From Rubripirellula lacrimiformis (GTDB taxonomy: Bacteria > Planctomycetota > Planctomycetia > Pirellulales > Pirellulaceae): a stretch of DNA of 64,000 bases. The stretch is from positions 6,014,001-6,078,000 of the forward strand of contig NZ_CP036525.1 of assembly GCF_007741535.1 (NCBI RefSeq). Reading direction: 5' to 3'. Below are positions 5,629 through 57,137 of the stretch, one piece after another (within the stretch, counting starts at the first letter, position 1; each line of letters starts with the position of its first letter). The position numbers were made by a program, and so were the translations under genes. The notes under the pieces were generated by a model. That model was given only the letters and a program-made list of their open reading frames with translations, was not told the DNA's origin and made no database searches.

Positions 5629-7044
5629 TCAGGCCAGGATGTCGTGGACGACGTGTCCGTGAACGTCGGTCAATCGAAAATTGCGGCCTTGATACTTGAA
5701 CGTCAGCCGCTCGTGGTCGATTCCCATCTGATGCAGGATCGTTGCGTGCAAATCGTGGATATGGATCGGCTTGTCGACGATGTTGTATCCGTATTCGTCG
5801 GTTTCGCCATAAACCAAGCCTGGTTGGATGCCGCCGCCAGCCATCCAGATCGTGAAGCAACGCGGGTGGTGGTCGCGGCCGAAACTGGTGGCCGTCAATT
5901 TTCCTTGGCAGTAATTGGTGCGGCCGAATTCGCCGCCCCAAATCACCAGGGTGTCGTCGAGCAGCCCCACCCGTTTCAAGTCTTTGACCAAGGCCGCCGA
6001 CGGTTGGTCGGTCTGTTTGCATTGCCGGGGCAGTCCCTGCGGCAGTCCGCCGTGGTGATCCCATCCCTTGTGGTACAGCTGGATGAACCGCACGCCGCGC
6101 TGAGCCAGTCGCCGAGCCATCAGACAGTTGGCGGCAAAAGAGCCGGGGTTCTTGGCGTCCGGCCCATAGGATTCGACGACTTCCTTGGATTCATCGGAAA
6201 AGTCGGTGGCTTCGGGAATCGATGACTGCATTCGGAAGGCCAGTTCGTACTGGGCCAATCGTGTTTCGACCAATCGGTCGGCGCCCTGGTCCAACTGCAT
6301 CTGGTGCAGTCCGGCCAGCGCATCCATCGACGCCCGCCGACTGCTGGTATCGATACCATCGGGATTGGACAGGTACAGGACCGGATCCTTGCCGCTTCGG
6401 AACGAAACGCCCTGGTGCTTGCTTGGCAAAAAACCGCTTCCCCACAGTCCGGCGCTAAGCGGCTGCCCCGAATTTTGGTCTTTGGTCGTCATCACGACGA
6501 AGGCCGGCAGATCCTGGTTTTCGGTCCCCAGACCGTAATCCATCCAGGCCCCCATGCTGGGGCGTCCCGGGATCATGCTGCCCGATTGCATGAACGTGAC
6601 ACCGGGTCCGTGATTGATCGCTTCGGTGTGCATCGATCGGACGACGCAGATGTCGTCGATGATCGACGCGGTGTGGGGCATCAATTCGCTAACCCAGGCC
6701 CCGTTCTGGCCGTGCTGCGAAAACTTGAACGGTGACCCCACCAGTGGCAAACTGGATTGATTCCCGCTCATCCCTGTCAAACGCTGGCTGCCCCGAATCG
6801 AATCCGGCAGTTCCTGGCCCTGTTTTTCGTTCAGCAGTGGTTTGTAGTCCAGCAGGTCCATCTGCGATGGCGCACCGGATTGAAACAAAAAGATCACTCG
6901 CTTGGCCTTGGGCGCGTGGTGCAGCGCCGACAGGATGCCGCCCCCAGTGCCATCCGCCGAAGCCAGTAGGTCGCTGGCCGCCAAGGCACCGAAACCGAGC
7001 CCGGTTTGTTGCAACAACGATCGTCGTGATAGGTTCCAATTCAT
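5629..7044 (-). CDS. DUF1501 Tat-exported protein (sulfatase-like fold)
   Basis: 471 residues from the ATG at 7044, which overlaps the stop of the upstream DUF1549/DUF1553 gene by ATGA. The N-terminus [15 protein letters not shown] is a twin-arginine signal followed by a hydrophobic Ala/Leu stretch. DUF1501 landmarks are IFLFQSGAPSQMDLLDYKP, SMHTEAINHGPGVTFMQSG, MGAWMDYGLGTENQDLPAFV, LYHKGWDHHGGLP, VIWGGEFGRTNYCQG and GRDHHPRCFTIWMAGGGIQPG. The fold is alkaline-phosphatase/sulfatase-like; substrate unknown. The invariable partnership with DUF1549/DUF1553 proteins in Planctomycetes suggests a joint periplasmic function. Confidence 0.92.
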   Translation of the reverse strand: MNWNLSRRSLLQQTGLGFGALAASDLLASADGTGGGILSALHHAPKAKRVIFLFQSGAPSQMDLLDYKPLLNEKQGQELPDSIRGSQRLTGMSGNQSSLPLVGSPFKFSQHGQNGAWVSELMPHTASIIDDICVVRSMHTEAINHGPGVTFMQSGSMIPGRPSMGAWMDYGLGTENQDLPAFVVMTTKDQNSGQPLSAGLWGSGFLPSKHQGVSFRSGKDPVLYLSNPDGIDTSSRRASMDALAGLHQMQLDQGADRLVETRLAQYELAFRMQSSIPEATDFSDESKEVVESYGPDAKNPGSFAANCLMARRLAQRGVRFIQLYHKGWDHHGGLPQGLPRQCKQTDQPSAALVKDLKRVGLLDDTLVIWGGEFGRTNYCQGKLTATSFGRDHHPRCFTIWMAGGGIQPGLVYGETDEYGYNIVDKPIHIHDLHATILHQMGIDHERLTFKYQGRNFRLTDVHGHVVHDILA

Positions 7045-10000
7045 CGTTTCACCATGCTTCCGTCGTAGTTCATCAATGTGCCGACCACGACCGTCATCGC
7101 CGCAACCGACGGGCCTGACACGGATGGGTCGGGTGGGGCATCGCCGATCCGCAAAAACGAATCGACTCGATCCGCTTGATCGCGAAAGTATTTCAGTTGT
7201 TGCTGATAAAGCTTGGACAACACTTCCTGTTCGCCGCTGGTGGGCGTGCGGCTGGTGATCGCACGGAACGCTTCGGTCACACCGCCGGATTCCAGTTGAT
7301 CGGGCGAATGTTTCTGGGCTAGCGTTTCGGCCAGGCCGCGTGCCGCTTCGATGTACTGTGGCCCGTTCAACATGACAAATGCTTGCAGCGGAGAAGCCGT
7401 TCGTTCGCGACTGACGCGGCACACATCACGCGACGGAGCGTCCAGGGTCATCATCACCGGAGCCGGCGCAGTTCGTTTCCAATACGTATACAGGCTGCGT
7501 CGATACAGCCCATCGCCTTTGTCGCGATCGACGGGCTTGAACGATGCTTCGACCTCGTACGGTTTCGCGGGCGGACCACCAATGGTTTTGACCAAACGAC
7601 CGCTGATGGCTAGCGCCGCATCACGCAACATTTCCGCCGGCAATCGATAGGTCGGAAAACGACTTAGGTAAACGTTGGTTGGATCCTGCTGGATCGATGT
7701 CGGGTCCGGATGGCGACTGGATTGTCGATAGGTGCGAGACATCATGATCCGTTTCAGCATCGCTTTGGTGTCCCAACCACTGTCGATGTATTCGATCGCT
7801 AGATAGTCCAACAGTTCGGGATGGGACGGCGGGCTGCCTTGACTGCCAAAGTCCTCGGGCGTGCGAACCAGCCCAACACCGAACAACATTTGCCACAATC
7901 GATTGACGGCAACGCGCGACGTCAGCGGGTGGCGTGGATCGCAAAGCCAATCCGCTAGCCCCAGTCGGTTGGCCGGCGCATCGGTTGGGAACGGCAGCAA
8001 TGCCGCAGGGGTTCCGGGTTGGACCACTTTGCCCGGCATGCTGTATTCGCCGCGGGCCAGCAGGTGGCTGGGGCGAGCGGTATCGAGTTCACGCATCACC
8101 ATGATCTCTTGGAGTCCGTCCTGGACGCTGCACAATTCCGACCTGGCCGCGGCCAACGCTTGCCCGGATTTAATGACGTCAACGTCGTGCCGCAGGATGG
8201 CGTGGTCAACGTGCAACGGAACGTCGTCGCTTGCCACCGGACCGTTCGCTTGGTTGCGTGCTTCCAAGTCGGTCAGTGCGACATCAAAGACTCGCATTTG
8301 ATCGACAAACCCGTTCTTGAAACCCCGATCGCGGAATCGTTCGCCGATCGCGATCGTGTCGCCACCGCCGCCGGTGATGTTTTTGGTCAGCGCGTCGCGA
8401 ACGGTTTCGGTCGCAGCTGGTTTCCCGTCGACATAGACTCGCAAACCGTCGGCCCGGCTGGCCCCATCATTGGTCACCGTGACGTGAACCCATTGGTCGA
8501 CTGGAATCGGGTCCAGGGTACGGATACTGATGGCATTGCCGGGCCAGAAGTGGATCAGTGACCACTGCAGTTTCCCTTCGTGGATCAACAGTTCGTAACC
8601 GCGACTGGCGGCGTCGGTCCACGCGCGTGAACGGTGGAACACGACGGCGCGTTCTTTGACGTCCGGCGTCTTGATCCACATCGAAACCGAAAACGGTTCG
8701 CTGCGTTTGAAGTTGCCAACCGGCGTCTGGACGGCATCGTCGCCCGTCAATCGAAACGCGTTGCCATCAATACCATCGGCGATCTTGTTTCGTCCCGGTG
8801 GCGACTGTTCGAAGTCGTTGGTGTAGATCGGGTCGGCCAACTGTAAATCGGTGAACCGTTGCTGGCTGATCTGTTGCTCCCAGAACTCGCGGTTTTGCTT
8901 CTTCGCCGCTGCGATCCGTCGCTCGGCCTTCGCGACAGCTTTCTGTTTCTCTGCCAACCTGGACTCTTCGAGGGGTGTCGGCAGCGACAAGGTCGGCGTC
9001 GGGATCGCATCGGTGAAATACGAGTACAGCCCAGCTTCGTCGATGTTGTCAAAGTACGCGGTTAGCTGGAAGTATTCTTCTTGGCTGATGGGGTCGTACT
9101 TGTGATTGTGGCAGCGACAGCATTCGTAGGTCAGGCCCATCATCGCGGTCGCTACCGTTTGGGCGCGGTCGGCGATGTACTCGATCCGGAACTCTTCGGG
9201 CACGCTGCCGCCTTCGACCTTTTGTGGATGCAGCCGGTTGAAAGTGGTCGCCAGTATTTGATCACGAGTGGCTGCGGGGGACGGCCCCGGCGGCAACAGG
9301 TCGCCGGCCAATTGCTGGGTGATGAACTGGTCATAGGGCATGTCGTCGTTGTAGGCAGCGATCACCCAATCACGCCAAGGCCAGACGAATCGGTCGCGAT
9401 CGACTTGGTACCCGTAGGTATCGCTGTAGCGTGCGGCGTCTAGCCAGACCGATGCCATTCGTTCGCCATACTCTTTGCGTGCCAGCAAGCGGTCCAGCAG
9501 TTTCGAATAGGCGTCCGGTGACTTGTCAGCGAGGAATTGATCGATCTCGGCAATCGTCGGCGGCAACCCAATCAGGTCAAAAGTGGAACGTCGGATCAGC
9601 GTTTCCGGTCCCGTGGGTGGTGCCGCCGATAATTTTTGTTGGTCCAGTTTGCGTTGGATGAATTGATCGATGGGATCCAATTCGATCGCGGGCGATGGAC
9701 TGTCCGTGTTTACCGAACCACCGTGTTCGCTAGCGTCCGAATCGCCTGGCGAAGCCATGGGCAGCGACGGGCGAGTCGGGGGGATGAATGACCAGTGACC
9801 TTGATAGGCTGCGCCTTGTTCGATCCAGCGGCGAACCGTTTCGATCTGCTGAGGCGACAGCGACCGCTCGGAATCGAGAGGCGGCATCCGCATGTCTTCA
9901 TCGTCCGACGTGATCCGATCGATCAAGTCGTCCAGGTCGGCCTCGCCTTCAACATCCAATCGCAAATCGGCAGCCCGATTGGCGTCATCAGGACCATGGC

Positions 10001-10115
10001 AATGGAAACAGTTTTCCGACAATATCGGTCGAATGTCGCGATTAAAAACGACCGAATCGTCAGACACGGCGACCGCGGCAATGATCGCCAAGAGCAAAGA
10101 CAACAAAAAACGCAT
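7041..10115 (-). CDS. PSCyt1 / DUF1549 / LamG-like / DUF1553 cytochrome-like protein
   Basis: 1024 residues from the ATG at 10115, which begins a Sec signal peptide ([18 protein letters not shown]). An upstream in-frame extension to 10241 looks non-coding. The order is: a cytochrome-like module with [12 protein letters not shown] (CxxCH) near residue 35; DUF1549 ([41 protein letters not shown]); a second heme-like motif [11 protein letters not shown]; a concanavalin/LamG-like insertion ([33 protein letters not shown]); and DUF1553 ([38 protein letters not shown]). This architecture is a Planctomycete hallmark. It is co-transcribed with the DUF1501 gene through a 4-base overlap. Secretion to the periplasm and heme binding are predicted; the reaction is unknown. 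Confidence 0.93.
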
Positions 10116-10330
10116 GAGCGAACTTGGCTGGTGGAAAGACAGGACGTAGCTAACCAGCATTGTAGTAGACTCCCTTGAAACTGGCCCAAACCATTCCCAA
10201 GCAGTCCGCAAAATCACTGGCGATGCCGTCTGACCGTACATTGCCGCAGGCGTCGTTCCAATCCATAAAACGATGGCGGCATCATTTCGCGGCCGATTTC
10301 ATGACCGACTGCGCTAAAAGCGGGGGCTGC

Positions 10331-12457
10331 CTACGATTTCTTACGCTTCACTTTTGAAACGTAGTGGATCGGCAGCTCGGGCAACGAATTGATAAACGTC
10401 CGCCCATACGGTTTGGTCCTGATCCGCGGATCCAAGACGACGACGATGCCATGGTCGGAACGGGTTCGGATCAGCCGTCCAAATCCCTGACGAAACTTGA
10501 TGACCGCTTCGGGCAGCTGGTAGTCGCCAAACGGATTTCCGCCACTGGCTTTGATCGATTCCAAGCGAGCTTCAAGCAGCGGATGGTCGGGGACAGCAAA
10601 CGGCAGTTTGGTGATCACCACATTGGTCAACGCATCGCCGGGAACATCGACGCCCTGCCAAAAACTATCGGTACCAAACAGCACACCGTTGGGCGTTCGG
10701 CGAAACGCGTCCAACAGCTGAGTGCGGCTTTGTTCGCCGCCCTGCGTGTACAACTGCAGGTTCTTTTCGGCGCACCATGCGGCCACCGCGTCGGCACAAC
10801 GTTTCAGCAACCCGTAACTGGTGAACAGCACAAAGGCATGCCCGTTGGTGTGCCCGACGAAGCGTTTGATCTGGGCGGGCAACGACTTTTCGAACGCTTC
10901 CCGTTCGCGCGATGGATCCGGCAGGTCAGTCACCACCACCAACTTGGCTTGCGACTTGTAATCGAACGGGCTGCCAACTTGAATCGACAGGCCGCTGGTC
11001 AGTCCGACTCGGGAACGAAAGAACTTGAAGTCGTCATTGCCAGTCGCCAGCGTTGCACTGGTCATCACAACGCTGCGGATCATTTCGTTTTGGAACAGTT
11101 CCTTGCGAAGGGTGTCGCCAACGTTGATCGGCGACGCGGCCAGCGTGACGCGGTCCATGCCTCGTCGCGACCCCGTGCGTTCGATCCAATAGACCGAATG
11201 TTCGATTTCCTGGCGCAACCATTGTCGCAAGCCGCCGGAAAGACCCAGCATCCGATCGTAGGCTGATTCGAAGTCCTTGCGATCGGTTTCCTGCTTCTGG
11301 GCAGCGGCCTGTTTTTGAAGCTGCGCCGCTAGGATTTCCATCGCATCACTCAGCGGATTGTCAACGATGTCCGGATGATGCACGCGGCCGTTCTTGGTCT
11401 TCGTTTGGTCGTACCAGTCCAACAGATCGGCGAACAGGTTGGTCGCGGCAAACCGACAACGATCGACCAAGTTCTGTAGCGTGACCAAGTCCTTGTCGAC
11501 CAGCAAACCCTTTTGAGTGCGATCGTTATAAAGTCGGTCGAACAAATAGTCGAACTGGCCGCTGGAAATCCGCAGCCCCAAGTGGTCGCCGGCAACGGCT
11601 TCGATCGTATGGCATTCGTCCAGGATGACGGCATCGTAGTCCGGCAGGATCGACACCCCTTGCCGACGCAGCGCCATGTCCGAAAACAGCATCGCGTGAT
11701 TGACGATCATCAATTGCGAATTCATCGCACGGCGACGAGCCCGAAAATAGAAACAATCTTTATGGTGCTTGCAGTTTCGCCCCAAACAGTTGCTGGTGTC
11801 GGAAACGACTTCGTCCCAGACCACAGGGTCAGGGCGCATCGAAAGAGTCGACTTGGAACCGTCCGGCGTATCCTTGCTCCACGATTTGATCGATCGCAAC
11901 TGGCTGTGTTGTTGATCGGTTGCCAGCAGCGAGGTGCTCTTCGCGATCGCTCTGTCCATTCGCCGGATCGACAGATAGTTCGATCGGCCTTTGACCAGGA
12001 CGGCGGAAAATTCGCGTGGGATCACGGCGTTCAGCAGCGGCACGTCCTTGGCGATCAACTGTTCTTGCAGACTGATCGTATGAGTGGAGATCACAACGCG
12101 GCGGCTGCGTTTCTTGCCCTCCCCATCCTCGGTGGTGCTGATTTCGTTTTGGTCCGCCGTTGCGTGCAGGATCGCGGGGACCAAATACGCAAAGCTCTTT
12201 CCGGTTCCGGTGCCGGCCTCCGCCACCAGATGTTTCTCCAAACGCAGTGCCTCGGCCACTTTACGTGACATTTCCAATTGCTGATCACGTGGTTCGTAAC
12301 CGGGCAATCGTCTTGCGATCGAGCCTTCGGGACCAAGAATCGAATCGACGGAAAGTTCGTCGCTCACGCTTTCGGGCTCTCGGCGGAAGGGAGGGGGACG
12401 GGATGGTTCAGAGGCCAAAGTGGCAAGTGACACGATAGCACCGGCGCCGCCAAACAA
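10331..12457 (-). CDS. DinG/XPD-family ATP-dependent DNA helicase
   Basis: Up to 708 residues from a TTG at 12457; a GTG eight codons in, at 12433, is an equally plausible start. This is a superfamily 2 helicase with the Walker [11 protein letters not shown] at about 79-88, motif Ia [21 protein letters not shown], the DECH box (VILDECHT), [25 protein letters not shown] and the C-terminal [14 protein letters not shown] and [14 protein letters not shown] motifs. The Fe-S domain retains three cysteines at about C224, C229 and C235, but the first ligand position reads NYLS, not NYLC, so the cluster may be absent or differently ligated. Probable role: unwinding of damaged or structured DNA. No operon partner: spacers on both sides. 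Confidence 0.9.
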
Positions 12458-46157: not shown

Positions 46158-46449
46158 ACCGCAGCCCGCCCCCCTTCTTTGGGTTCCCCTACAACCGGCA
46201 ATTTCGTTTCAATCATTTGAATCGATCCAACCGGTCCCGATTGGGCGGACGATGGGGCGGACGATGAGGCCCGATGGCATGCGTGGGGGGGGATGGGTCG
46301 TAACGGCTGACCAGCGGCCGGATTGGCCGCTTGGCCCGATCTGTGTTGGAGCCACTGTGCGCAGTGGAATAGAATAGTGGGTACATCGATGGCTGTCGGT
46401 ACGTTCAAAGGTCATCGCATGCACCCTCTGGTCTTAGGATCTCCACCTC

Positions 46450-48132
46450 GTGAACCAATCGCTTCCGATTCGCCGTTTTGCCCTGTCGCTGCTGTGCTTG
46501 TTTGCAGTCGCTAGCGGACCAGCGTTGGTTTCAGCGCCGGCGGCCGACACGCAGGTTCGTCCCCAAGTGGCATTGATCAACGAGTTGATCGAACAGGGGT
46601 GGCGAGATTTTGAGATTCGCAGCCCGGCCCCCGATGTCGATGATGCGACCTGGGCCCGGCGAGTGTACTTGGACGTGATTGGTCGAATTCCAACCGTCGC
46701 AGAACTGCGGGAATTCACCAGCACGCGAGGCAGCGACAAGCGATCCAAGTTGGTCGACACGCTGCTCAATGACGATCGCTATACCGAAGAATACGCCAAC
46801 CACTGGGCGACGATTTGGTCGAACCTGTTGATCGGCCGCAGCGCCGGCAACGATCGACGATCGATGGTCAGCCCCGAAGGGATGCAGAAGTACCTGCGTG
46901 ATTCCTTTGCGACGAACAAACCCTACAACACGATGGTCTACGAACTGGTGACCGCGACCGGCAGCGGCAAACCAGGCAGCGACGGCTTCAACGGCGCGAC
47001 CAACTTTTTGTTGGACAAGGTCAACCAAGACAATGCGGTGTTGGCGACCAGCAGCACGTCGCGAATTTTCCTAGGCCAACAGGTCCAGTGCACCCAGTGT
47101 CACAACCATCCATTCAATCAATGGAAACAACAACGTTTCTGGGAATTCAATTCGTTCTTTCGCCAGACTCGATCGCTGCGTCGGTTCGTCGATGGCACCA
47201 ACGACATCGCACATGGCGAGTTGGTTGATCAAGACTTTGCCGGCGAATCCAATTCGCCCGAAGACGCACTGATTTTTTACGAACTGCGAAATGGATTGAC
47301 CAAGGTCGCCTACCCGGTGTTCACCGACGGCACGCCGATCGATCGCAGCGGATTTGTGAGCGAAGTCAATCGCCGCGAAGAACTCGGTCGACTGATGCTC
47401 GAAAGCGAGTATCTGGACAAGATGATCGTCAACCGAATGTGGTCGCTGCTATTGGGATTTGGATTCACCAAACCGATCGACGATCTGGGCCCACACAACC
47501 CAGCGTCGCATCCCGAGCTGTTGGAAAAGTTAGCCGTTGAGTTTCGCAAGTCCAGCTATGACCTGAAGGAACTGATCACTTGGATCACCGCCAGCCGCCC
47601 CTATCAATTGGCCGCGGTGTTGGGAACCAGCAACGAGGTCGACGATCCGTCGATCGGCGAGATGCCTAAGTTTTCACGTTTCTATCTGCGTCAGATGTCA
47701 GCCGAACAGTTGTACCAATCGATGGTCACCGCGACCGATGCATCGGCGTCGGGAAGCTACGAGGAACAGGAACGCGAACGGCGTCGTTGGTTAAGCCAGT
47801 TTGTGGTGGCCTTTGGAACCGACGAAGGCGACGAAGCCACGACTTTCAACGGTTCGATTCCGCAGGCCCTGATGCTGTTCAACGGTGCGTTGACTCAGAA
47901 CGCCATCAGCAAGGAAGAAGGCAGCTTCATTGACCGCGTCGCCAAGACAGGCCGTTCACCGCAAGACCGCGTGGCGGTGTTGTTCCAAGCGGGTTTGGCA
48001 CGGCGGCCGAATCGAAGCGAAATGCAGATCGCTGCACAATTGCTGCGAGCTCGCGAAGGCAACGAAGCCGAGATGCTGCAAGACATGTGGTGGGCTGTGA
48101 TCAACAGCAACGAATTCATCATGCAGCACTAA
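46450..48132 (+). CDS. DUF1549/DUF1553 exported protein with heme-type CxxCH
   Basis: 560 residues from a GTG at 46450. Sec signal peptide (RRFALSLLCLFAVASGPALVSAPA). DUF1549 follows (DATWARRVYLDVIGRIPTVAELREF, YTEEYANHWATIWSNLLIGR). A heme-type motif CTQCHNHPFNQW is at about residue 214-218. DUF1553 (IVNRMWSLLLGFGFTKPIDDLG, SHPELLEKLAVEF, LITWITASRPYQLA) and a C-terminal Planctomycete repeat domain (FQAGLARRPNRSEMQIA) complete it. It lacks the leading PSCyt1 and LamG-like modules of the paralogue at 7041-10115. First gene of a four-gene run with the DUF1501, sigma and anti-sigma genes. The 137-base gap before the next gene holds no terminator. Confidence 0.94.
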   Translation: MNQSLPIRRFALSLLCLFAVASGPALVSAPAADTQVRPQVALINELIEQGWRDFEIRSPAPDVDDATWARRVYLDVIGRIPTVAELREFTSTRGSDKRSKLVDTLLNDDRYTEEYANHWATIWSNLLIGRSAGNDRRSMVSPEGMQKYLRDSFATNKPYNTMVYELVTATGSGKPGSDGFNGATNFLLDKVNQDNAVLATSSTSRIFLGQQVQCTQCHNHPFNQWKQQRFWEFNSFFRQTRSLRRFVDGTNDIAHGELVDQDFAGESNSPEDALIFYELRNGLTKVAYPVFTDGTPIDRSGFVSEVNRREELGRLMLESEYLDKMIVNRMWSLLLGFGFTKPIDDLGPHNPASHPELLEKLAVEFRKSSYDLKELITWITASRPYQLAAVLGTSNEVDDPSIGEMPKFSRFYLRQMSAEQLYQSMVTATDASASGSYEEQERERRRWLSQFVVAFGTDEGDEATTFNGSIPQALMLFNGALTQNAISKEEGSFIDRVAKTGRSPQDRVAVLFQAGLARRPNRSEMQIAAQLLRAREGNEAEMLQDMWWAVINSNEFIMQH

Positions 48133-48269
48133 CCCAGCGCGTCCTGCAAACAAACCACGCGTGTTGGCTTCGGCCAACGTTCGTCGGTCACCATCCGAAT
48201 CGTTCGGGTCGCCCGTCGCACATCCATCGTATCGCTCATCCACTTATCTATTTCGCGAAGGCACTTCCC

Positions 48270-49544
48270 ATGACCACATCTTGGCAAACACCGACCGGCA
48301 TGAGTCGTCGCCACTTCATGCAGCACATGGCAGGATCATCGGCTGCGGCCGGCGCGGCGTTCACGATGGGCAACGCGATCTACGCCAATGCCGACGAGAT
48401 GAAAAAGAACCGCAAGAGTGCGATTCTGTTGTGGATGGGCGGCGGGCCATCGACGATCGATATGTGGGATATGAAACCCGGCGCTCCCACCGGCGGTCCG
48501 TTCAAGCCGATCTCGACGACCGGCGACATGCAAATCTGCGAACACATGCCAATGATGGCTCAGCAGATGAAACACTTGTCGGTCGTGCGCAGCATGTCGA
48601 CGCGAGAAGCCGATCACAATCGCGGTCGCTACTACATGCACACCGGGTTTGTCCCCAACCCCAATATCGAACACCCCAGCTACGGAAGCGTGATCGCTCA
48701 CGAATTGATTGGCCAGCGTCCCGAACTGGAAATCCCGCCATTCGTGTCGGTCGGTGGCGCGGCCGCGGGCCCCGGATTCCTGGGCATGGCCTGGAGCCCG
48801 TTTTCGGTCAGCAGCAATGGACAGATCCGAAATCTGGACATGAAGCTGAAGGAAACTCGCCTGATGCAGCGGATGGCCGCGCTCAATGCGATCGAAACTG
48901 GATTCGAAAAACGCACCCGCGACCTGCCGGCTTCCGAGCATGCGAAGGTGCTTCGAAAAACGTATGATCTAATGACCAGCCAACAGATGGATGCGTTCCG
49001 TGTCGAGAAAGAAGACGACGCGACCAAGCAACGCTACGGCACAGACCGATTCGGCCAAGGATGTTTGTTGGCCCGACGATTGGTCGAAGCCGGTGTCCCG
49101 TTCGTCGAAGTCGACCTCGGTGGCTGGGATAACCACAACGGCGTTCACGCGATTTTGAAGGACACCAAGTTGCCTCAGTTGGACCGTGCCATGAGTGCGT
49201 TGACCGAAGACCTGGCCCAACGCGGGTTGCTGGAAGACACCGTCTTGGTTTGGATGGGCGAATTCGGCCGCACCCCGCGGATCAACCAAGATGGCGGACG
49301 TGACCACTGGGCACGTTCCTGGTCCTGCGTTGTCGGCGGCGGCAATCTGAAAGGCGGATTGGCCATCGGCGAAACCAGCAGCGACGGAACCGCGGTTGAA
49401 TCCGAGCCCTATAGCAGCGAAGATTTGATGTCCACGGTCTGCAAAGGCTTGGGGATTTCCACGGATAAAACGTTCACCAGCAAAAACGGACGGCCGATGA
49501 AAATTGCCGGCGGCGGCAAGATCATTACCGACCTACTGGCATAG
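48270..49544 (+). CDS. DUF1501 Tat-exported protein
   Basis: 424 residues from the ATG at 48270. The N-terminus holds a twin-arginine signal (MSRRHFMQHMAGSSAAAGAAF). Landmarks are AILLWMGGGPSTIDMWDMKP, SMSTREADHNRGRYYMHTGF, FVSVGGAAAGPGFLGMAW, FVEVDLGGWDNHNG, LVWMGEFGRTPRINQDGGRDHW and SWSCVVGGGNLKGG. The DNH and GRDHW positions look like the metal site of the sulfatase/phosphatase fold. Its stop (TAG) shares its last base with the GTG start of the sigma factor gene. Closer in length to a minimal DUF1501 than the copy at 5629. Enzymatic role unknown. Confidence 0.94.
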   Translation: MTTSWQTPTGMSRRHFMQHMAGSSAAAGAAFTMGNAIYANADEMKKNRKSAILLWMGGGPSTIDMWDMKPGAPTGGPFKPISTTGDMQICEHMPMMAQQMKHLSVVRSMSTREADHNRGRYYMHTGFVPNPNIEHPSYGSVIAHELIGQRPELEIPPFVSVGGAAAGPGFLGMAWSPFSVSSNGQIRNLDMKLKETRLMQRMAALNAIETGFEKRTRDLPASEHAKVLRKTYDLMTSQQMDAFRVEKEDDATKQRYGTDRFGQGCLLARRLVEAGVPFVEVDLGGWDNHNGVHAILKDTKLPQLDRAMSALTEDLAQRGLLEDTVLVWMGEFGRTPRINQDGGRDHWARSWSCVVGGGNLKGGLAIGETSSDGTAVESEPYSSEDLMSTVCKGLGISTDKTFTSKNGRPMKIAGGGKIITDLLA

Positions 49545-50128
49545 TGGCAGTGGCGTCGTCCGGTGATTCGCAGAATACCGATAGCGGCACCGTCCCAAGT
49601 CCCAGCGACTCGGTAGAACGGTTGCCGGCCGATCTGATCGCGCGCCACCAACGTGGCGTCTGGCGATATCTGCGCATGCTGGGCTGTGACGACGCGATGG
49701 CGGACGATTTGACTCAAGAGACATTTTTGCGAGTTCTTCGCCGCGACAACTTCGTTCAACATAGTGACGTCGCCACCAGCAGTTACCTGCGGCGGACGGC
49801 GTACAACCTGATGGTGTCGGATCATCGCCGGCGAAAAAAAGTGCAAACCATGGCCGAATCGCCGGTCATGGACGAAATCTGGGATCGCTGGGCGGGCAAA
49901 GACCTGGCCGGCGACCGCGCGGTGGATTCGCTGAAAGAGTGCATTCGTTTGCTGACCAAACGAGCTCAATTGGCGTTGCAGATGCGATTCGCCGATGAAG
50001 CCACCCGGATCGAGATCGCCGACGCGTTAAACATTACTGACCATGGTGCCCGCAATTTGATGCAGCGGGCCAAAGCCCAGCTTCGCGATTGTGTCGAAGC
50101 GAAATTGAAGTTAGACCTGCCTACATGA
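49544..50128 (+). CDS. ECF-type RNA polymerase sigma factor
   Basis: 194 residues from a GTG at 49544 that overlaps the DUF1501 stop by one base. Region 2: RHQRGVWRYLRMLGCDDAMADDLTQETFLRVL, with TSSYLRRTAYNLMVSDHRRRKK. Region 4: ECIRLLTKRAQLALQMRFADEATRIEIADALNITDHGARNLMQRAKAQLRDC, a helix-turn-helix. No C-terminal extension. The first 25 residues are Ser/Asp-rich. Placed between a DUF1501 gene and a membrane anti-sigma-like gene (ATGA overlap), it is likely controlled by that protein and may transcribe its own operon. Which group of ECF factors it belongs to would need profile scoring. Confidence 0.93.
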   Translation: MAVASSGDSQNTDSGTVPSPSDSVERLPADLIARHQRGVWRYLRMLGCDDAMADDLTQETFLRVLRRDNFVQHSDVATSSYLRRTAYNLMVSDHRRRKKVQTMAESPVMDEIWDRWAGKDLAGDRAVDSLKECIRLLTKRAQLALQMRFADEATRIEIADALNITDHGARNLMQRAKAQLRDCVEAKLKLDLPT

Positions 50129-52350
50129 CCAACGCTAACCAACCCGATCCGCAGCGATCAACCGATTCGCGTTCTGGGGATTCCCCAGCCGACGCGTTCG
50201 ATGAACGCGCGTTCGATGCGTTGCTGGCCGAGGCCATGGGCGGCGCCGAACCACCCGATTTGACGGCTCAAATCCTGGCGCGTCTGAACCAAGACCCCAC
50301 ACCGGCCCCCGCCGTCGAACCGCCGCCAATCCACGCCGCGGTAGTCCGTTCGGGCCAATCCAGCGCGCCGGTGATGGGTGACGGGCCAACACAGCCGCCC
50401 ATCCAACCCATCGACGCAGATGCCGCCAATTCCACGTGGCGACGTCGCGTGCGGCTAGCCGCGGTGTTAGCTGCCCTGGCTGCCTCCGTTGTCGCGGTCG
50501 TTTGGCTCCGCCCCGACGCCGTGCGTCCACTGGAAATCGATGGCCTGGATATCGCCGCCGCGCCCAGTGCGCCGGGTTCCGATTCCGGAAACCCGAATTT
50601 GGCAGACACCAGTTCTCCGGATTCTAGGATTGCAGGCCCAAATTCGATCGATCCAAATTCGATCGATCCAAATTCGCCGGATCCGCAGCCTGCGGTGCAG
50701 TCGCCGGAACCGGGATCGATCGATCCACCTGCCGCTAGCGATGCGATCGCACAGTCGCGGCCGCCTCGCGGAATCCCGATGGTGCTAGACATCCCCAATG
50801 ATGGCAGCACAGGCGATGGCAATCCGAATCAGGATGGCAGGGGCAGTTTATCGCCATCGGTCTCTGACATAGCGACCAACTCCGACACGGCGACCAACCG
50901 CACAATCGCGGCGGACCGATCGGCGCATCCGGATGCCAGCGAACCGAAGGCTCTTTCGCCGCTGCGTTTGGTGTCCCGTCAAACCGATACACAGATGCGA
51001 TCCTATTGGGACGCAATTGGGATCCAGCCGGCCACGGCGGCCGAGCAGCCCGAAGTCCTGGCACGTTTCAATGCGGCCACCGGGATTGATTTCCAGCCCG
51101 ATGATCTAGCGGATGCCGACGCGATTCAAGCTCGACTTGCAGGGCCCCAGGCGGCTCGGCAAGTCGCGAAGCGTTGGCTCGGCGACGTCACCGAAGGCGG
51201 TTTGGGACGGATCGATGCGGACGCTCAATCACGTTTGGTGGATGCAGCGGCTGGCGTGTTTGCTGGAAAAACATCCGGCGACGAATTGTTGACCCGATGG
51301 TTCAGCGGCGAATCAGAGGATTCATCGTCCTTCTATTCTGCGATGGCGCATGCATCGAAGTCGCTAGCCGATGGGGCATTGGCGCGACGCTTGGCATCGC
51401 TGTCGATGGATGCCGACCTTCGCTGCACACGTTGCCACGACGCTTACATCGAAGGCAGCGGACAACAGCAAGATTACTGGTCGTTGATGGCGTTGTTGCA
51501 GCGTGACTTGGTTTCCGCCAAAGGCCGCAAGGGTGTTTGGTCGGTTGCCAAATCGGCTTCATCCAAACCCGTCTTTTTCGACCTACCGGATGGTCGCCGC
51601 CGGCTTGCCGAGCCCGCTGTGGCGGCCGCTTGGATCGGATCCGATCAACCCGCACTCTCGCTAGGCCAGTGGGCCGACCGCCTGAAAGATTCCGACGCAT
51701 TGGCCAGCGGACTGGTCAATTCGATCTGGAAGATGGTTCATGGCCAGCCCCTGCGGGGCCGCGTGGTGGACCCGATGAGCGCCCCGCACAACGAGGCACT
51801 GCAATCGCTGGAACGTGAATTGACCGATGATCTGCGACGCAGCAACTTCGACCTCGGACGCACCTTGGCGTTGGTTTTGGCATCCCCGGCAACCAATCGC
51901 GAAGTGCCCGATTCGCTGAAAAACGCATGGGTGATCGACAATGCCGCCGACCGTTCGGCGGCCGAAGCCTTTGCCGCAGCGGTGCCGGCCCGGTCCAATT
52001 TGTCGCTGAATCGACGTCTGGACGAAACGATGCGGGCGATCGGTGCCAAACTGGACGGCGACGGCAATCCCTTGCTGGCCCAACTGGGCGACAGCAGCAA
52101 GGGCAACGGAAAAGGGAAGACGCGTCAGGCGGATCGGTTGTCCTGGGACTTCCCCGACCGAGCCGAATCGCTGCCAGTCCAGTGGTTGGTGCCGATGGAC
52201 GATCTGGCCGATCGCGTCAATCACCTCGGTTATTTGGGCGGAATGACAGAACTTCCCAAATCGATCCTCGCTGCAGCCGATGCGATGCAAGCGGCCGGCG
52301 TGGACGACGCAACCCTGCTGAACCGAGTCTGGTGGCTGGTTCGCCAGTAA
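50125..52350 (+). CDS. Membrane anti-sigma-like protein with CxxCH motif and DUF1553-like region
   Basis: 741 residues from the ATG at 50125, overlapping the sigma stop by ATGA. The cytoplasmic N-terminus (FDALLAEAMGGAEPPDLTAQILARL) resembles short anti-sigma regions. One membrane helix lies at about 109-128 (RVRLAAVLAALAASVVAVVW). A long disordered Pro/Asp/Asn-rich stretch follows with NSIDPNSIDPNSPDP repeats. A folded part begins near residue 290; CTRCHDAY at about 434-438 is a c-type heme motif. Residues about 525-605 (GLVNSIWKMVHGQPLRGRV, NEALQSLERELTDDLRRSNFDLGRTLALVLASPATNRE) look like DUF1553. A redox- or substrate-sensing anti-sigma factor is the best reading, but the anti-sigma role rests on position and topology. 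Confidence 0.75.
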   Translation: MTNANQPDPQRSTDSRSGDSPADAFDERAFDALLAEAMGGAEPPDLTAQILARLNQDPTPAPAVEPPPIHAAVVRSGQSSAPVMGDGPTQPPIQPIDADAANSTWRRRVRLAAVLAALAASVVAVVWLRPDAVRPLEIDGLDIAAAPSAPGSDSGNPNLADTSSPDSRIAGPNSIDPNSIDPNSPDPQPAVQSPEPGSIDPPAASDAIAQSRPPRGIPMVLDIPNDGSTGDGNPNQDGRGSLSPSVSDIATNSDTATNRTIAADRSAHPDASEPKALSPLRLVSRQTDTQMRSYWDAIGIQPATAAEQPEVLARFNAATGIDFQPDDLADADAIQARLAGPQAARQVAKRWLGDVTEGGLGRIDADAQSRLVDAAAGVFAGKTSGDELLTRWFSGESEDSSSFYSAMAHASKSLADGALARRLASLSMDADLRCTRCHDAYIEGSGQQQDYWSLMALLQRDLVSAKGRKGVWSVAKSASSKPVFFDLPDGRRRLAEPAVAAAWIGSDQPALSLGQWADRLKDSDALASGLVNSIWKMVHGQPLRGRVVDPMSAPHNEALQSLERELTDDLRRSNFDLGRTLALVLASPATNREVPDSLKNAWVIDNAADRSAAEAFAAAVPARSNLSLNRRLDETMRAIGAKLDGDGNPLLAQLGDSSKGNGKGKTRQADRLSWDFPDRAESLPVQWLVPMDDLADRVNHLGYLGGMTELPKSILAAADAMQAAGVDDATLLNRVWWLVRQ

Positions 52351-52736
52351 CACCGCCCGTCGGTGCGTGACGTCGCCTCTGGCCGTGGGTTTCGCCAAAA
52401 TGCGATGGTCGCCGGTTTGGCACGCCAATCGCGTTATAGGTGTGTTGTCGCACATCCGACCCTGGTTTGGACCGTTTTTGTGTTGCAGGTTGCGTCAATC
52501 GCAGCATTTTGCAACACCTACAACCGGACCAAAGGCAGATCAGAGCGACGGAAAGCCCGTTTTTTCCGTGGCGAGTGCGATGTACCGAGAATAGACTCGA
52601 ACGATGAGTCTTCGCAGACTGCTTTTCAACTAAATCACCAACCGGCTTGTTTGTCGCCGCCGGTCCGCCCCCCCCGATGGGAACATCCCCGTCGTGGAGT
52701 AGGTTTTGGACTGTTTTCGACATGGAGAAACTTCTC
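52351..52736. other. Spacer before the VWA protein, no gene seen
   Basis: About 390 bases. It holds a sigma-54-like sequence at 52418-52432 and a short stem acggaaa / tttccgt near 52547-52570 with a T run between the arms. Coding frames are absent; an in-frame extension of the next gene to 52647 is not supported by a ribosome site. Confidence 0.45.
52418..52432 (+). promoter_or_regulatory. Sigma-54-like -24/-12 sequence
   Basis: tggcacg-ccaa-tcgc matches the consensus TGGCACG-N4-TTGC at all but one base, with the correct spacing between the GG and GC dinucleotides. It is about 300 bases from the start codon, a long leader, and could be chance. Confidence 0.3.
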
Positions 52737-55700
52737 ATGGGATTGCGACACGTCGCACGAACCGTTTTCACCTTGGCCATCGCCACGGTGGTTTCGGCGC
52801 CATCTTTGGCAGCTGATACCTCCAATGCGGATGGAGCCCAAGTTCGCATTGCTACGTACCGCTTGGCGGATGGGAGCGGATACTTTGCCGCGTCGATCCA
52901 GCCTTCGGCCGAACAGGCGTTGATTGCTGCAACCGGTCAATCGCCAGCGGACGTTGTCATCCTGGTCGACACGTCGGCCAGTCAGGTCGGACAGTTCCGA
53001 ACGGATTCGATCGCCGCCGTGCGATCGATCGCCGAAAAGCTTCGTTCGGGCGACCAAGTTCGCGTGTACGCAGCGGACGTCCATACGGCCGATGTCAGCG
53101 GCGATTTCACTTCGCCCTCGGATATCTCGACAGCCACCGCCCAATTGAAAAAGCGTTTGCCGCTTGGCAACACGAACATGGTGCAGGTGATCGACGCCGT
53201 TCGATCCGCATTGGTCGCGCGTCCCCAAGGCCGCACTCGATCGATCATTTACATCGGCGACGGTGCATCGATCGACGCGATGGGCGATTCAAAACGCTTT
53301 GGTGCTTTGATCGGTGCGTTGCGTGCAGATCGAATTGCAGTCCACTCGTTGGCGATCGGTCCGGCCACCAACATCGAACTGATGGGCGTCCTGGCCAATC
53401 AAACCGGAGGCGTCCTGGGCGTCGTATCGCAAGAAAAGGGTGCATCGGTTGCCGCACTAGCCCCGCAAGTGGCTCGCAGTGCAACGACATCACCGATTTG
53501 GTTGACCGAAGCCAAGTTGATCGACGGCATGACCAGCATTCAGACCGATCGGCTTCCGCCGCTGCGTTTGGATCGCGATTCGATTTTGATCGGTCGTTTG
53601 GCAGCCGGCGCCGAAGCATCGGGAACGATGCAATTGACCGGCGAAACATCGACCTCGTCCGTCCGTATTTTGGCCGACGCTGAACTGGAAGACAGTCATC
53701 CCGACTTCGCTTTCCTGGGCGGCTTGGTCAATGAAGCCGTTGCCGATTCGGGTCTGCGATTGGCCACTGCGGGTTCGCCTTTGCTGCGTGAAACCGCTCG
53801 CTTGATGACAGCCAAATCCGAAGCTTTGGTTCGTGCTGGTAACATGGCTCTGCAACAGGGCAACAAGCGTGGTGCCAAGGTAGTGGCCGACTTGGCGATT
53901 CAAGCCGACCCGAACAACTCCGACGCCATCTCGCTTGAAAAAGCTGCTGGAAACCGCTTGGTGATCCAGAACGAAGGCGGCGCGTTTGATGACATTTTCG
54001 GCGGTGCGGAAGCACCGGCCGCACCAACGGCTCCCGCGGCTCCGGCTGCTGGTGATGCGGACCCCTTCGGCGGTGCAGGTGGTGATGCCGACCCGTTCGG
54101 CGCTGCGATGGACACGACGGATAGCAGCGGCGACGCATTTGGTGTCGAACCGGCAGCTCCCGTTGCCCCGACCGCTCCTGCGGCTCCAGCTCCCCCAGCG
54201 ATGGCTGCTCCGCCCGTCGCACCTCCGGTAGCGGCACCGCCTGCGAACGTGCCACGCGTGACTGCACCGATGGCCGGTGGCGGTGGCGTCCGTGGATTGG
54301 CTGATTTCGCCACTCCCGTTGGCGACGACGAATTACGCGAAGAAGCGGGCCCGTTGTTGGACCGTGTTCGACGTGAACGTTCGGCCAACGATGGACGCAT
54401 GCGAGCCTTGGTGCGTGCCTCCCTGCGTGAAGCAGAATCGCGGATTCGCAAAGACCCCACCGGTGTTGCGGGATCGCTGAAAAGCTTGCTGGCAAACTTG
54501 GAGACCACTCCCGACCTCGATCCGCAACTGCGAAACGAATTGTTGTCGCAAGTTCGATCGGCCATCCAGATGGCCAGCCGCAGCGAAGCCGAATACAGCG
54601 AACAGCAACGCAACTTGGAACAAGTCGTCTCCGGTGCCAACGCATCGGCCCGTTTGATCGAAGAAACGATGCGTCGCGAATCGACGTTGAAGACGCTGTC
54701 ACAACAAATGAACGCGTTGATCGACGAAGGCCGCTACGAAGAAGCCGACGGAACAGTAACGCTTGAATTCTCTGAAATCGCTGGTGATACGATCACCAAA
54801 GACTCGGTCGCTGGTCGTCACTTCACCGACGAACCACTGATGTTGCAGACCTATGCACGTGACCGTCGCTATCGCGAACTGCGTCAACGTAACTTTGTCG
54901 ATGCGATGTCGTTGGTGCTGAAAAGTGATATCCCCTTCGTTGACGAACCACCCATCGTTTACCCCGATGCAGAAGTTTGGCAACGGATGAGCCGTCGTCG
55001 TCTGGAACGATACGGTTCGATCGAATTGGTCGGTGACAACGCGACCGAACGTCGCATTCAAACCGCACTGAGCGACGAAACGTCGCAAACGTTCGTTGAA
55101 ATGCCATTGTCCGACGCCGTTGCCGAATTGAGCCGGACGCACGATATCCCAATCGTGATCGACAACCGTGCCCTTGAAGAAATCGGCCTGTCGGAAGAAG
55201 AACCCGTCGACTTGACGCTCCAGAATGTTTCGCTGCGTTCGTTCTTGCGACTGATGTTGCGAGAGTACGAATTGACCTACGTCATCAAAGACGAAGTCAT
55301 GCAGATCACCACGATCGAAGCGGCTGAGCAGAACTTGATCAACAAGGTCTATCCGGTCGGTGACTTGGTCGTTCCTGTTATCCAATTGGGTGGCGGTGGC
55401 GGCATGGGTGGCGGCGGCATGGGCGGTGGCATGGGTGGCGGTGGCGGTGGTATGGGCGGCGGAATGGGTGGCGGTATGGGCGGCGGCGGAATGGGCGGCG
55501 GCATGGGTGGCGGTGGCATGGGCGGCGGTGGCGGCATGTTTGCTGTTCCCGACGACGTGACGCTGGGATCCAAGCAAACCGCTTCGCAACCCGCAGCCGA
55601 TGCCGAAGCACCGGTTCAGTCGATCGCCAAATCGGACGCATCGATGCGTGCCATCGTTTTGAAGGTCGCCGATGGCCAATCGCGTGATGATGCTTGGGAC

Positions 55701-57137
55701 CAATTCTTTGCTGACCAACAGATTCACGGTGCAAAGGACCTGACCATTTTGGATCAACGCGTCCGTTCGACCGTTGGAATGTTGTCGGCGAAAGCCGATC
55801 GTCTGCAACAGCAAGGCGATACCGAGGGCGCCGTCGATCAGTTCGTGCAAGCTCGCGATGCGATCGCCGGTGCGATGCGTGCCGGTCATGTCCAACCTTG
55901 GATGTACCAGGCCTATGCGATCGCGTTGAAAGCGACTTCGGCACCGCCGGAAGACGTCGAACGCGCGTTGTTGTCGGCTGTTGATTTCGCCGAAACACCC
56001 GAGGACGTTCTGAACGTCGCCGGCCGATTGGAAGACATCGGTGCGACCACAGCTGCACTGCAGCTGTGCCAAAAGGTATCCGTGATGGATCCCTATCGCC
56101 GCGACGCTTACGTGATGGGCATGCGATTGGCTCGCCGTGACAACAATGTCGACGGGTTGATGTGGGCATGCGAAGGCATCTTGGGCCAAGCATGGCCAGA
56201 GAGTTTTCAGTCGATCGTCGACGAGGCTCGCCTGGTTGCTCGTGCGACCCATGCCGAACTCGTTGAACAAGGACAAACCGAGGCTGCAGGCAAGTTCAAC
56301 GAAGCGTTGAAATTGGCTGCTTCCCACGACGTGATCGTTCGCGTTTCGTGGACCGGTGACGCCGACATCGACTTGGCCGTCGAAGAACCCTCGGGCACCG
56401 TGTGCTCGCTGGAGAATCGTACGACCGCCGGTGGCGGAACCCTGGTCGGTGATTCGTTCCCCGGCAGCGCGGCTGATATCGAAGGGACCGTTTCGGAAAC
56501 CTATCTGTGCCCCCAAGGGTTCAGCGGACAGTACCGATTGTTGGTCCGCCGTGTATGGGGCAACGTTTCGACGGGCCGCGTATCGGTCGAACTGTTGACC
56601 GACGTCGGACGCCCATCCCAGCGTTTCATCCGTCAAGAAGTACCGTTGACTGAAAAAGACGCTTTGGTGGTTTTCGAAGTCAAAGACGGCAAACGCAAAG
56701 AAGAAGTTGCCGAGGCACAACTGGCCAATCTACGCGACGTTCAACGTCAAGTTCAGAACGAAGTGTTGGGTCAGTTCATCGGTGGCGGCAATGACAGCAG
56801 CCAAGTCCTAGCCGACCTGTACAACGACATCCAGCGAGCCACCGGTGGCGTCGGTGGTGTGGCCGCTGGCCGTGGATTGTTCAATCGACCTGGTGCGGTC
56901 GGTTTCCGTCCGGAACTGACGGTGCTTCCCGAAGGTGCCAGTAATTCGACTCTGGCGATCATTTCGGCCGATCGCCGTTACGTTCGAATTTCGCCTGCAC
57001 CGTTCTTCTCCCAAATCGGTGACGTCACCACGTTCAACTTCGTCACCGGCGACGAAGGATCAGGCACCGGTGGTGCTGGTGGCATCGGCGGCGGTGCTGG
57101 CGGGATCGGCGGTGCGGCAGGCGGGATCGGAAACTAG
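52737..57137 (+). CDS. Giant exported VWA / STN-like / DUF2135-like protein with Gly-Met tract
   Basis: 1466 residues from the ATG at 52737, which has GGAG nine bases upstream (an ATG at 52722 lacks one). Signal peptide (ARTVFTLAIATVVSAPSLAA). The order is: a VWA domain at about 72-235 with a MIDAS-like DTSAS; a Pro/Ala-rich linker at about 425-515; a coiled-coil region; an STN/secretin-N-like fold at about 782-865 (MPLSDAVAELSRTHDIPIVID, LTLQNVSLRSFLRLMLREYELTYVIKDEVMQIT); a run of GGGM repeats at about 883-935; TPR-like helices at about 980-1190; a DUF2135-like beta domain from about 1197 (VRVSWTGDADIDLAVEEPSG); and a Gly-rich end. Probably a surface or periplasmic scaffold. It stands alone, ended by a strong terminator. 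Confidence 0.85.
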   Translation: MGLRHVARTVFTLAIATVVSAPSLAADTSNADGAQVRIATYRLADGSGYFAASIQPSAEQALIAATGQSPADVVILVDTSASQVGQFRTDSIAAVRSIAEKLRSGDQVRVYAADVHTADVSGDFTSPSDISTATAQLKKRLPLGNTNMVQVIDAVRSALVARPQGRTRSIIYIGDGASIDAMGDSKRFGALIGALRADRIAVHSLAIGPATNIELMGVLANQTGGVLGVVSQEKGASVAALAPQVARSATTSPIWLTEAKLIDGMTSIQTDRLPPLRLDRDSILIGRLAAGAEASGTMQLTGETSTSSVRILADAELEDSHPDFAFLGGLVNEAVADSGLRLATAGSPLLRETARLMTAKSEALVRAGNMALQQGNKRGAKVVADLAIQADPNNSDAISLEKAAGNRLVIQNEGGAFDDIFGGAEAPAAPTAPAAPAAGDADPFGGAGGDADPFGAAMDTTDSSGDAFGVEPAAPVAPTAPAAPAPPAMAAPPVAPPVAAPPANVPRVTAPMAGGGGVRGLADFATPVGDDELREEAGPLLDRVRRERSANDGRMRALVRASLREAESRIRKDPTGVAGSLKSLLANLETTPDLDPQLRNELLSQVRSAIQMASRSEAEYSEQQRNLEQVVSGANASARLIEETMRRESTLKTLSQQMNALIDEGRYEEADGTVTLEFSEIAGDTITKDSVAGRHFTDEPLMLQTYARDRRYRELRQRNFVDAMSLVLKSDIPFVDEPPIVYPDAEVWQRMSRRRLERYGSIELVGDNATERRIQTALSDETSQTFVEMPLSDAVAELSRTHDIPIVIDNRALEEIGLSEEEPVDLTLQNVSLRSFLRLMLREYELTYVIKDEVMQITTIEAAEQNLINKVYPVGDLVVPVIQLGGGGGMGGGGMGGGMGGGGGGMGGGMGGGMGGGGMGGGMGGGGMGGGGGMFAVPDDVTLGSKQTASQPAADAEAPVQSIAKSDASMRAIVLKVADGQSRDDAWDQFFADQQIHGAKDLTILDQRVRSTVGMLSAKADRLQQQGDTEGAVDQFVQARDAIAGAMRAGHVQPWMYQAYAIALKATSAPPEDVERALLSAVDFAETPEDVLNVAGRLEDIGATTAALQLCQKVSVMDPYRRDAYVMGMRLARRDNNVDGLMWACEGILGQAWPESFQSIVDEARLVARATHAELVEQGQTEAAGKFNEALKLAASHDVIVRVSWTGDADIDLAVEEPSGTVCSLENRTTAGGGTLVGDSFPGSAADIEGTVSETYLCPQGFSGQYRLLVRRVWGNVSTGRVSVELLTDVGRPSQRFIRQEVPLTEKDALVVFEVKDGKRKEEVAEAQLANLRDVQRQVQNEVLGQFIGGGNDSSQVLADLYNDIQRATGGVGGVAAGRGLFNRPGAVGFRPELTVLPEGASNSTLAIISADRRYVRISPAPFFSQIGDVTTFNFVTGDEGSGTGGAGGIGGGAGGIGGAAGGIGN

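Follow-up and report, generated by a model that had tools for sequence, protein, structure and literature searches.

Related systems and the four-gene operon

Heat, cold and salt induce the extracytoplasmic function (ECF) sigma factor RB10049 of Rhodopirellula baltica, which Studholme et al. proposed as a regulator of the DUF1549/DUF1553 protein RB10051 (PSD1+PSC2) (PMC2754498). Described systems of other kinds share single traits with the locus analysed here. In CnrY, two helices clamp the sigma4 and sigma2 domains of the sigma factor (PMC7406223), and a conserved CxxCH is found in extracytoplasmic sensors such as the Cache_heme domain, recruited from cytochrome sequence (PMC12889525), and Geobacter GSU0582 and GSU0935, which are c-type haem sensors (PMC3460858). 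The planctomycete-type cytochrome proteins are described as wholly unknown in function in the genomes studied (PMC5615132). We analysed a window of 64,000 nucleotides from Rubripirellula lacrimiformis (genome of 8.54 Mb, single contig), in which an ECF sigma factor gene is embedded in an operon with genes for exported DUF1549/DUF1553 and DUF1501 proteins:

46450-48132, plus strand: gene 1, exported DUF1549/DUF1553 (PSCyt2/PSD1) protein, with CTQCH at residues 214-218
48270-49544, plus strand: gene 2, Tat-type DUF1501 protein
49544-50128, plus strand: gene 3, ECF sigma factor with sigma2 and sigma4
50125-52350, plus strand: gene 4, membrane protein, predicted anti-sigma factor with a decayed DUF1549/DUF1553 sensor

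We propose, with a probability of about 0.74, that these genes constitute a self-contained, autoregulated ECF sigma/anti-sigma unit, in which the sensor part of gene 4 is homologous to gene 1, the exported protein under its control. The computed support consists of the conserved gene order, the homology of genes 1 and 4, an invariant CxxCH in gene 4, an N-terminal motif found repeatedly beside ECF-type genes, and a conserved promoter-like element.

The four genes, their order and their overlaps had been recognised in a first-pass annotation made from the sequence alone, and are borne out by the sequence and by Pfam matches. Gene 1 matches PSCyt2/DUF1549 (E=1.5e-45) and PSD1/DUF1553 (E=1.2e-26), and gene 2 matches DUF1501 (E=6.4e-107, 358.5 bits versus a cut-off of 27); a PDB sequence search returned nothing credible for gene 1 (a single match, E=0.41) and no match for gene 2. 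The latter most likely starts at the ATG at 48270 and has a Tat-like SRRHF export signal, the Pfam TAT_signal match being below cut-off (E=0.049). Gene 3, starting with a GTG at 49544, has one base in common with the gene 2 stop codon (TAG, 49542-49544). Its Sigma70_r2 (1.6e-11) and r4_2 (2.4e-6) matches are above cut-off and its region 3 match is below (E=0.03), which is the ECF combination of regions 2 and 4 without region 3; the nearest NCBIfam subfamily is TIGR02989, at 69.1 bits under a cut-off of 124.55. The ATG of gene 4 at 50125 sits in an ATGA overlapping the sigma stop.

Among the genomes used for comparison, G130 is presumably that of R. baltica. The counterpart of the window operon in G130 is locus L068 (around G130:C1:6858271-6863739), separate from L193, which we matched to RB10049/RB10051 by its 217-residue sigma open reading frame on the plus strand, as in the table of PMC2754498. 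Both the window operon and RB10049/RB10051 place an ECF gene beside a DUF1549/DUF1553 protein, and for the latter a regulatory tie was already suggested. They differ in that L193 has the sigma gene first, followed by a fused protein (N-terminus, hydrophobic helix, PSCyt1, PSCyt2, PSD1) and then DUF1501; its N-terminus is of another kind, and its DUF1549 domain falls among other proteins, apart from both gene 1 and gene 4. The earlier description of the window operon as an undescribed system therefore needs qualification: the link between ECF sigma factors and DUF1549/DUF1553 had been suggested for RB10049/RB10051, in a locus of different order and N-terminus. Two further sets, L183 in the window's own genome (G000:C1:3952000-3957500) and L194 in G130, were seen to consist of a sigma gene, a protein with an N-terminus, a hydrophobic helix and an intact DUF1549/DUF1553 part, and then DUF1501; the N-terminus common to both (ADAxDAPPVPxSLVxRL) is unlike that of gene 4. 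Together with L193, these sets indicate that the tie between a sigma factor and a DUF1549/DUF1553 module recurs, as had in part been noticed earlier. What the present analysis adds is the decayed predicted sensor keeping CxxCH, the shared N-terminal module and the promoter, for which a literature search that did not extend to three main ECF and planctomycete surveys found no published description.

Conservation of the gene order

Loss of the four-gene order in relatives had been named at the outset as an outcome that would speak against a functional link, and the order proved to be kept. We sought gene 4 in 149 genomes of the family and obtained matches in 88 at E ≤ 0.001, many of the weak ones probably being other DUF1549 proteins. 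The comparison covered 59 family genomes, all selected for having gene 4, through the 39 strongest matches and 20 found via the N-terminal motif described below. The order gene 1, DUF1501, sigma, gene 4 is present in 48 of these 59, and the remaining 11 keep sigma and gene 4, either alone (eight genomes; in L121 and L125 the available sequence before sigma is only some 3 to 4 kb long) or followed by DUF1501 (three genomes). The full order also occurs in loci L033-L038, from Rhodopirellula, Rubripirellula, Aporhodopirellula and an unclassified Planctomycetaceae bacterium, while the sequence of L039 stops within the sigma gene. Two pairs of loci (L034/L040 and L035/L066) were taken as the same, and one of each pair was removed from the CxxCH, alignment and promoter counts given below. 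The four-gene order is thus more than chance and is kept across genera.

Gene 4 as a predicted anti-sigma factor

The N-terminal part of gene 4 is predicted to comprise a short cytoplasmic motif followed by one membrane helix:

50200-50298, plus strand: predicted anti-sigma motif of gene 4, resembling ExALDALLxExxGGxxPPDLSxxILxRL
50431-50508, plus strand: predicted transmembrane helix of gene 4, a single hydrophobic helix at residues ~103-128

Gene 4 has the layout of a membrane anti-sigma factor, adjoining the sigma gene and having one membrane helix after an N-terminal domain. The motif is recognisable in 45 gene 4 proteins compared, with RDF replacing PPDL in L071-L074. In L055 and L056, the start of gene 4 seems to hold an anti-sigma-like motif twice in tandem. 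An alignment built from 23 gene 4 N-termini had matches at E ≤ 0.001 in 66 of 100 family genomes, in nearly all of them a single one, and at E ≤ 0.01 in 51 of 297 genomes of the class. Outside the family, 23 genomes matched the motif, and in 19 of the 20 loci examined a sigma-HMM match was found upstream on the same strand; in 18 cases it overlaps or lies no more than 200 bases away, and in L171 it is at ~0.9 kb. Four of these 20 loci have DUF1549/1553 behind the motif (L161, L162, L165, L166). Nine other motif proteins were scanned: five have VWA + YfbK_C (L163, L164, L168, L171, L172), two have FecR (L175, L176), one has weak matches to RseA_N and zf-HC2 (below cut-off, in the distant protein L177), and one has nothing. 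The VWA/YfbK_C and FecR proteins carry the gene 4 motif and have sigma upstream, but differ from gene 4 in their C-terminal domains and in having no CxxCH. Recurrence of the motif beside ECF genes, on proteins whose outer domains vary, makes an anti-sigma domain its most likely identity, as judged from the sequences. Within the window genome, the best motif match outside the operon is weak and partial (E=0.0136); a sigma gene immediately precedes it and a hydrophobic stretch comes after it. We also noted that the motif occurs on sigma-neighbouring proteins at L163, L164 and L167-L174, which are probably another planctomycete anti-sigma family, with VWA + YfbK_C in the five scanned.

The predicted domain is not of the zinc-binding ZAS class I, as HxxxCxxC is absent and residues 1-102 of gene 4 hold no Cys. 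AlphaFold predicts, at low confidence, short helices at residues 21-37 and 47-54, ahead of the membrane helix, where sigma binding of the CnrY type uses two helices; these would fit a CnrY-like sigma clamp, a fit that falls short of proof. To our knowledge, the periplasmic parts of that two-helix system and of gene 4 are unrelated.

A decayed outer domain that keeps CxxCH

Beyond the membrane helix, gene 4 continues into a domain whose homology to gene 1 had been overlooked in the first-pass annotation, as had its CTRCH:

50509-50976, plus strand: Pro/Ser/Asp-rich linker of gene 4
50977-52347, plus strand: predicted periplasmic sensor of gene 4, homologous to gene 1 by alignment
51424-51438, plus strand: CTRCH of gene 4 (residues 434-438), a c-type haem-like motif
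52222-52224, plus strand: His700 of gene 4, conserved in gene 4 and not in gene 1, a candidate second ligand

The window protein passes no Pfam cut-off in this region, its best match being PSCyt2 (E=0.0045, 17.4 bits versus 29.8), whereas the gene 4 proteins of L118 (E=4.9e-43) and L078 are above the PSCyt2 cut-off, so that gene 4 can be considered a homologous but decayed DUF1549 protein. By its sequence, gene 4 is a paralogue of gene 1 in which the N-terminal motif and a single predicted membrane helix precede a DUF1549/DUF1553 domain, decayed in the window protein and almost complete in some relatives. We aligned 63 gene 4 and 53 gene 1 proteins (L077, which is cut short, was omitted), and both kinds share CxxCH as well as a number of W, Q and G positions. 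The gene 4 proteins were split by discovery route into a group of 43 of the window kind, comprising L033-L038 and the proteins that match the window protein strongly, and a group with the other 20. From the 183 columns conserved at ≥95% in gene 1, the group of 43 keeps 14 at ≥85% and the group of 20 keeps 46; single proteins keep between 25 and 144, the window protein 31, and L078, although in the group of 43, is not decayed (103/183). CxxCH is nevertheless present in 64/64 gene 4 proteins, and the NHPF that follows it is mostly gone. His700 is found in 43/43 of the window group and 17/20 (0.85) of the others, the commonest gene 1 residue at this position being R (0.32). Decay goes along with the presence of gene 1: the median number of the 183 columns kept is 100 in proteins that lack a separate gene 1 in their vicinity (n=11) and 36 in those that have one (n=52; Mann-Whitney p 0.0013, not corrected for kinship).

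As CxxCH persists in a domain that lost most else, a cofactor is the likely sensing part. The CxxCH lies in a domain predicted, from the membrane helix, to be exported, and the genome has a partial match to ResB, involved in cytochrome c maturation (48.5 bits versus 24.6, covering 193-271 of 486). An extracytoplasmic position and a CxxCH are traits that gene 4 would share with the Cache_heme and Geobacter sensors; Cache and PAS haem sensors sit on other signalling proteins, in contrast to gene 4, which is DUF1549-derived, a predicted anti-sigma factor and a candidate haem protein.

Two trees place these domains relative to other DUF1549 proteins. In a tree of 38 rows, which omits the gene 4 proteins with the strongest decay (the window's included) and 8 of the 16 outside DUF1549 rows, gene 1 forms one clade (100/100), and gene 1 together with 18 fuller gene 4 domains stands apart from 8 other DUF1549 proteins (100/100); a single clade of gene 4 domains is not rejected (AU p 0.443). 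In a tree of 69 rows, from which five decayed gene 4 rows were dropped for too short a match, gene 1 and 16 other DUF1549 proteins are on opposite sides of one branch (100/100), and the gene 4 rows are scattered without forming a single group, in positions that are unsure owing to long branches.

A promoter-like element before the first gene

46378-46406, plus strand: predicted ECF-like promoter TGGGTAC-N17-CGTTC (GTAC at 46381-46384, CGTT at 46402-46405)

The best dyad upstream of gene 1 is GTAC-N16-CGTT, found in 31 of 51 regions, compared with at most 7 for any dyad in ten sets shuffled in blocks of ten bases. With a spacing of 16 or 17, the element precedes the first gene in 42 of 54 operons starting with gene 1 and in 5 of 11 starting with sigma, the latter regions having played no part in finding it. 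In control regions of equal length, the core occurs in 0/54 before DUF1501, 4/54 before internal sigma genes, 1/64 before gene 4 and 0/65 on the reverse strand, and in 90 of 4728 tiles of the same loci, true sites included. The element thus tends to precede whichever gene comes first, as expected if the operon's own sigma factor uses it. Compared with the usual ECF boxes, AAC and CGT (PMC8103513), the -10 agrees and the -35 differs. In genome G036 an identical promoter-like sequence of 28 bases was seen seven times, perhaps within a repeated element.

Proposed mechanism and alternative explanations

Our proposal is that gene 4 is a membrane anti-sigma factor whose short cytoplasmic N-terminal motif would hold the sigma factor, and whose single helix would cross the membrane. 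Its periplasmic part, a mostly decayed homologue of gene 1 that kept CxxCH, would probably act as a sensor with covalently bound haem or another cofactor. A periplasmic change might then free the sigma factor: the redox state could shift, the haem could meet a gas or ligand, or the exported DUF1549/DUF1553–DUF1501 pair could become engaged. The freed sigma factor would transcribe the operon from GTAC-N16/17-CGTT and thereby yield the exported pair together with further sigma and anti-sigma factor. This takes up the first-pass suggestion that the exported proteins are made in response to a periplasmic signal: the conserved ECF-like promoter and the anti-sigma anatomy of gene 4 speak for such a response to a putative signal.

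Several points weigh against this proposal. On the protein side, gene 4 matches no Pfam anti-sigma domain, and L180 has a motif match with no match to sigma or to any other model. The AlphaFold models of genes 4 and 1, which rested on alignments of 7, are poor (mean pLDDT 52.0 and 42.6), and Foldseek found nothing for the predicted models at E ≤ 0.001. We know of no demonstration that a DUF1549 protein binds haem. As for the promoter, requiring TGR before the core (TGRGTAC) reduces the counts to 27/54 and 5/11, the spacing of 17 in the window is the rarer kind (8 of 47 exact sites), and the exact core is absent from the tested region in 12/54 gene-1-first and 6/11 sigma-first operons; among the latter, L127, L133 and L136 have a site close to the gene that deviates by one mismatch, in L052 and L131 such a site lies only far upstream, and L119 has none. 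A search for a wider regulon with the strict promoter gave 32 sites versus 33 for the reversed pattern at spacing 16 (10 genomes), and 7 versus 5 at spacing 17 (2 genomes). Strict sites elsewhere being no commoner than in the control, the unit appears to serve itself; there may be a regulon with looser promoter sites.

The main alternative retains the same switch and concerns its sensing step. The gene 4 domain could compete with gene 1 for binding to DUF1501 or its substrate; the anti-sigma factor would then read whether the exported pair is complete or busy, and CxxCH would be structural. The homology of the sensor to gene 1 is in keeping with such competition, as are the operons that have DUF1501 after gene 4 and lack a separate gene 1 in the 12 kb examined (3/59 family genomes, and L165 of another family). 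Yet with 14 of the 183 near-invariant columns remaining in the window group and NHPF mostly gone, a shared binding surface is not obviously kept in gene 4, and we consider competition a possible but rather doubtful account of sensing. A role of gene 4 as an enzyme or electron carrier tethered to the membrane, with sigma controlled by its own level or by another partner, is more improbable: some gene 4 proteins do retain most of the domain (up to 144 columns), but the N-terminal motif is also found next to sigma genes on membrane proteins whose other domains differ, and the domain decays in most lineages bearing gene 1 while sigma and motif persist. A chance juxtaposition of an ECF pair and an ordinary DUF1549/DUF1501 module would draw on the abundance of both kinds, as the window genome has at least 55 sigma-70 region-2 places and at least 48 DUF1549 places (at least 48 and at least 42 of the latter in the two genomes counted). 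It is scarcely credible given the order in 48/59 genomes, the promoter-like element before gene 1 and the homology of genes 1 and 4.

How the autoregulated sigma/anti-sigma unit arose is more speculative. Tentatively, and with the odds rather against it, one ancestral membrane protein may have been both DUF1549/DUF1553 protein and anti-sigma factor. A duplication would have freed the soluble gene 1, after which the tethered copy would have shed nearly all but the cofactor site to become a pure haem-carrying sensor. The sigma–gene 4–DUF1501 operons could be a surviving instance of the ancestral arrangement. If the proposal is true, the decay of a relative of the controlled protein into a sensor that keeps the haem-type motif would be a clear case of anti-sigma sensor evolution. 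The conserved operon, which comes with a promoter, a sigma factor and a predicted sensor of its own, also makes the function of the abundant DUF1549 proteins testable, its promoter offering a reporter of whatever the module responds to.

Other genes in the window

A second copy of the module in the window consists of DUF1501 (5632-7422) and a larger PSCyt1/PSCyt2/LamG/PSD1 protein (7044-10241). It had been noted as lacking an attached regulator, which holds as far as tested: the gene beside it (10334-12457) encodes a helicase, and the genome-wide sigma search lists no further sigma-70 region-2 place within the window. The strong PSCyt2 protein at 7044-10241 is absent from the results of the genome-wide family search, and the DUF1549 counts from that search are therefore lower bounds.

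Downstream of gene 4, the VWA gene at 52734-57137 was considered as a fifth operon member and rejected, since a strong match was found in L055 only, upstream of the operon, and a weak one in L075. The large VWA protein that it encodes has a Gly-rich stretch and matches STN, FecR_C and Amuc_1098 weakly.

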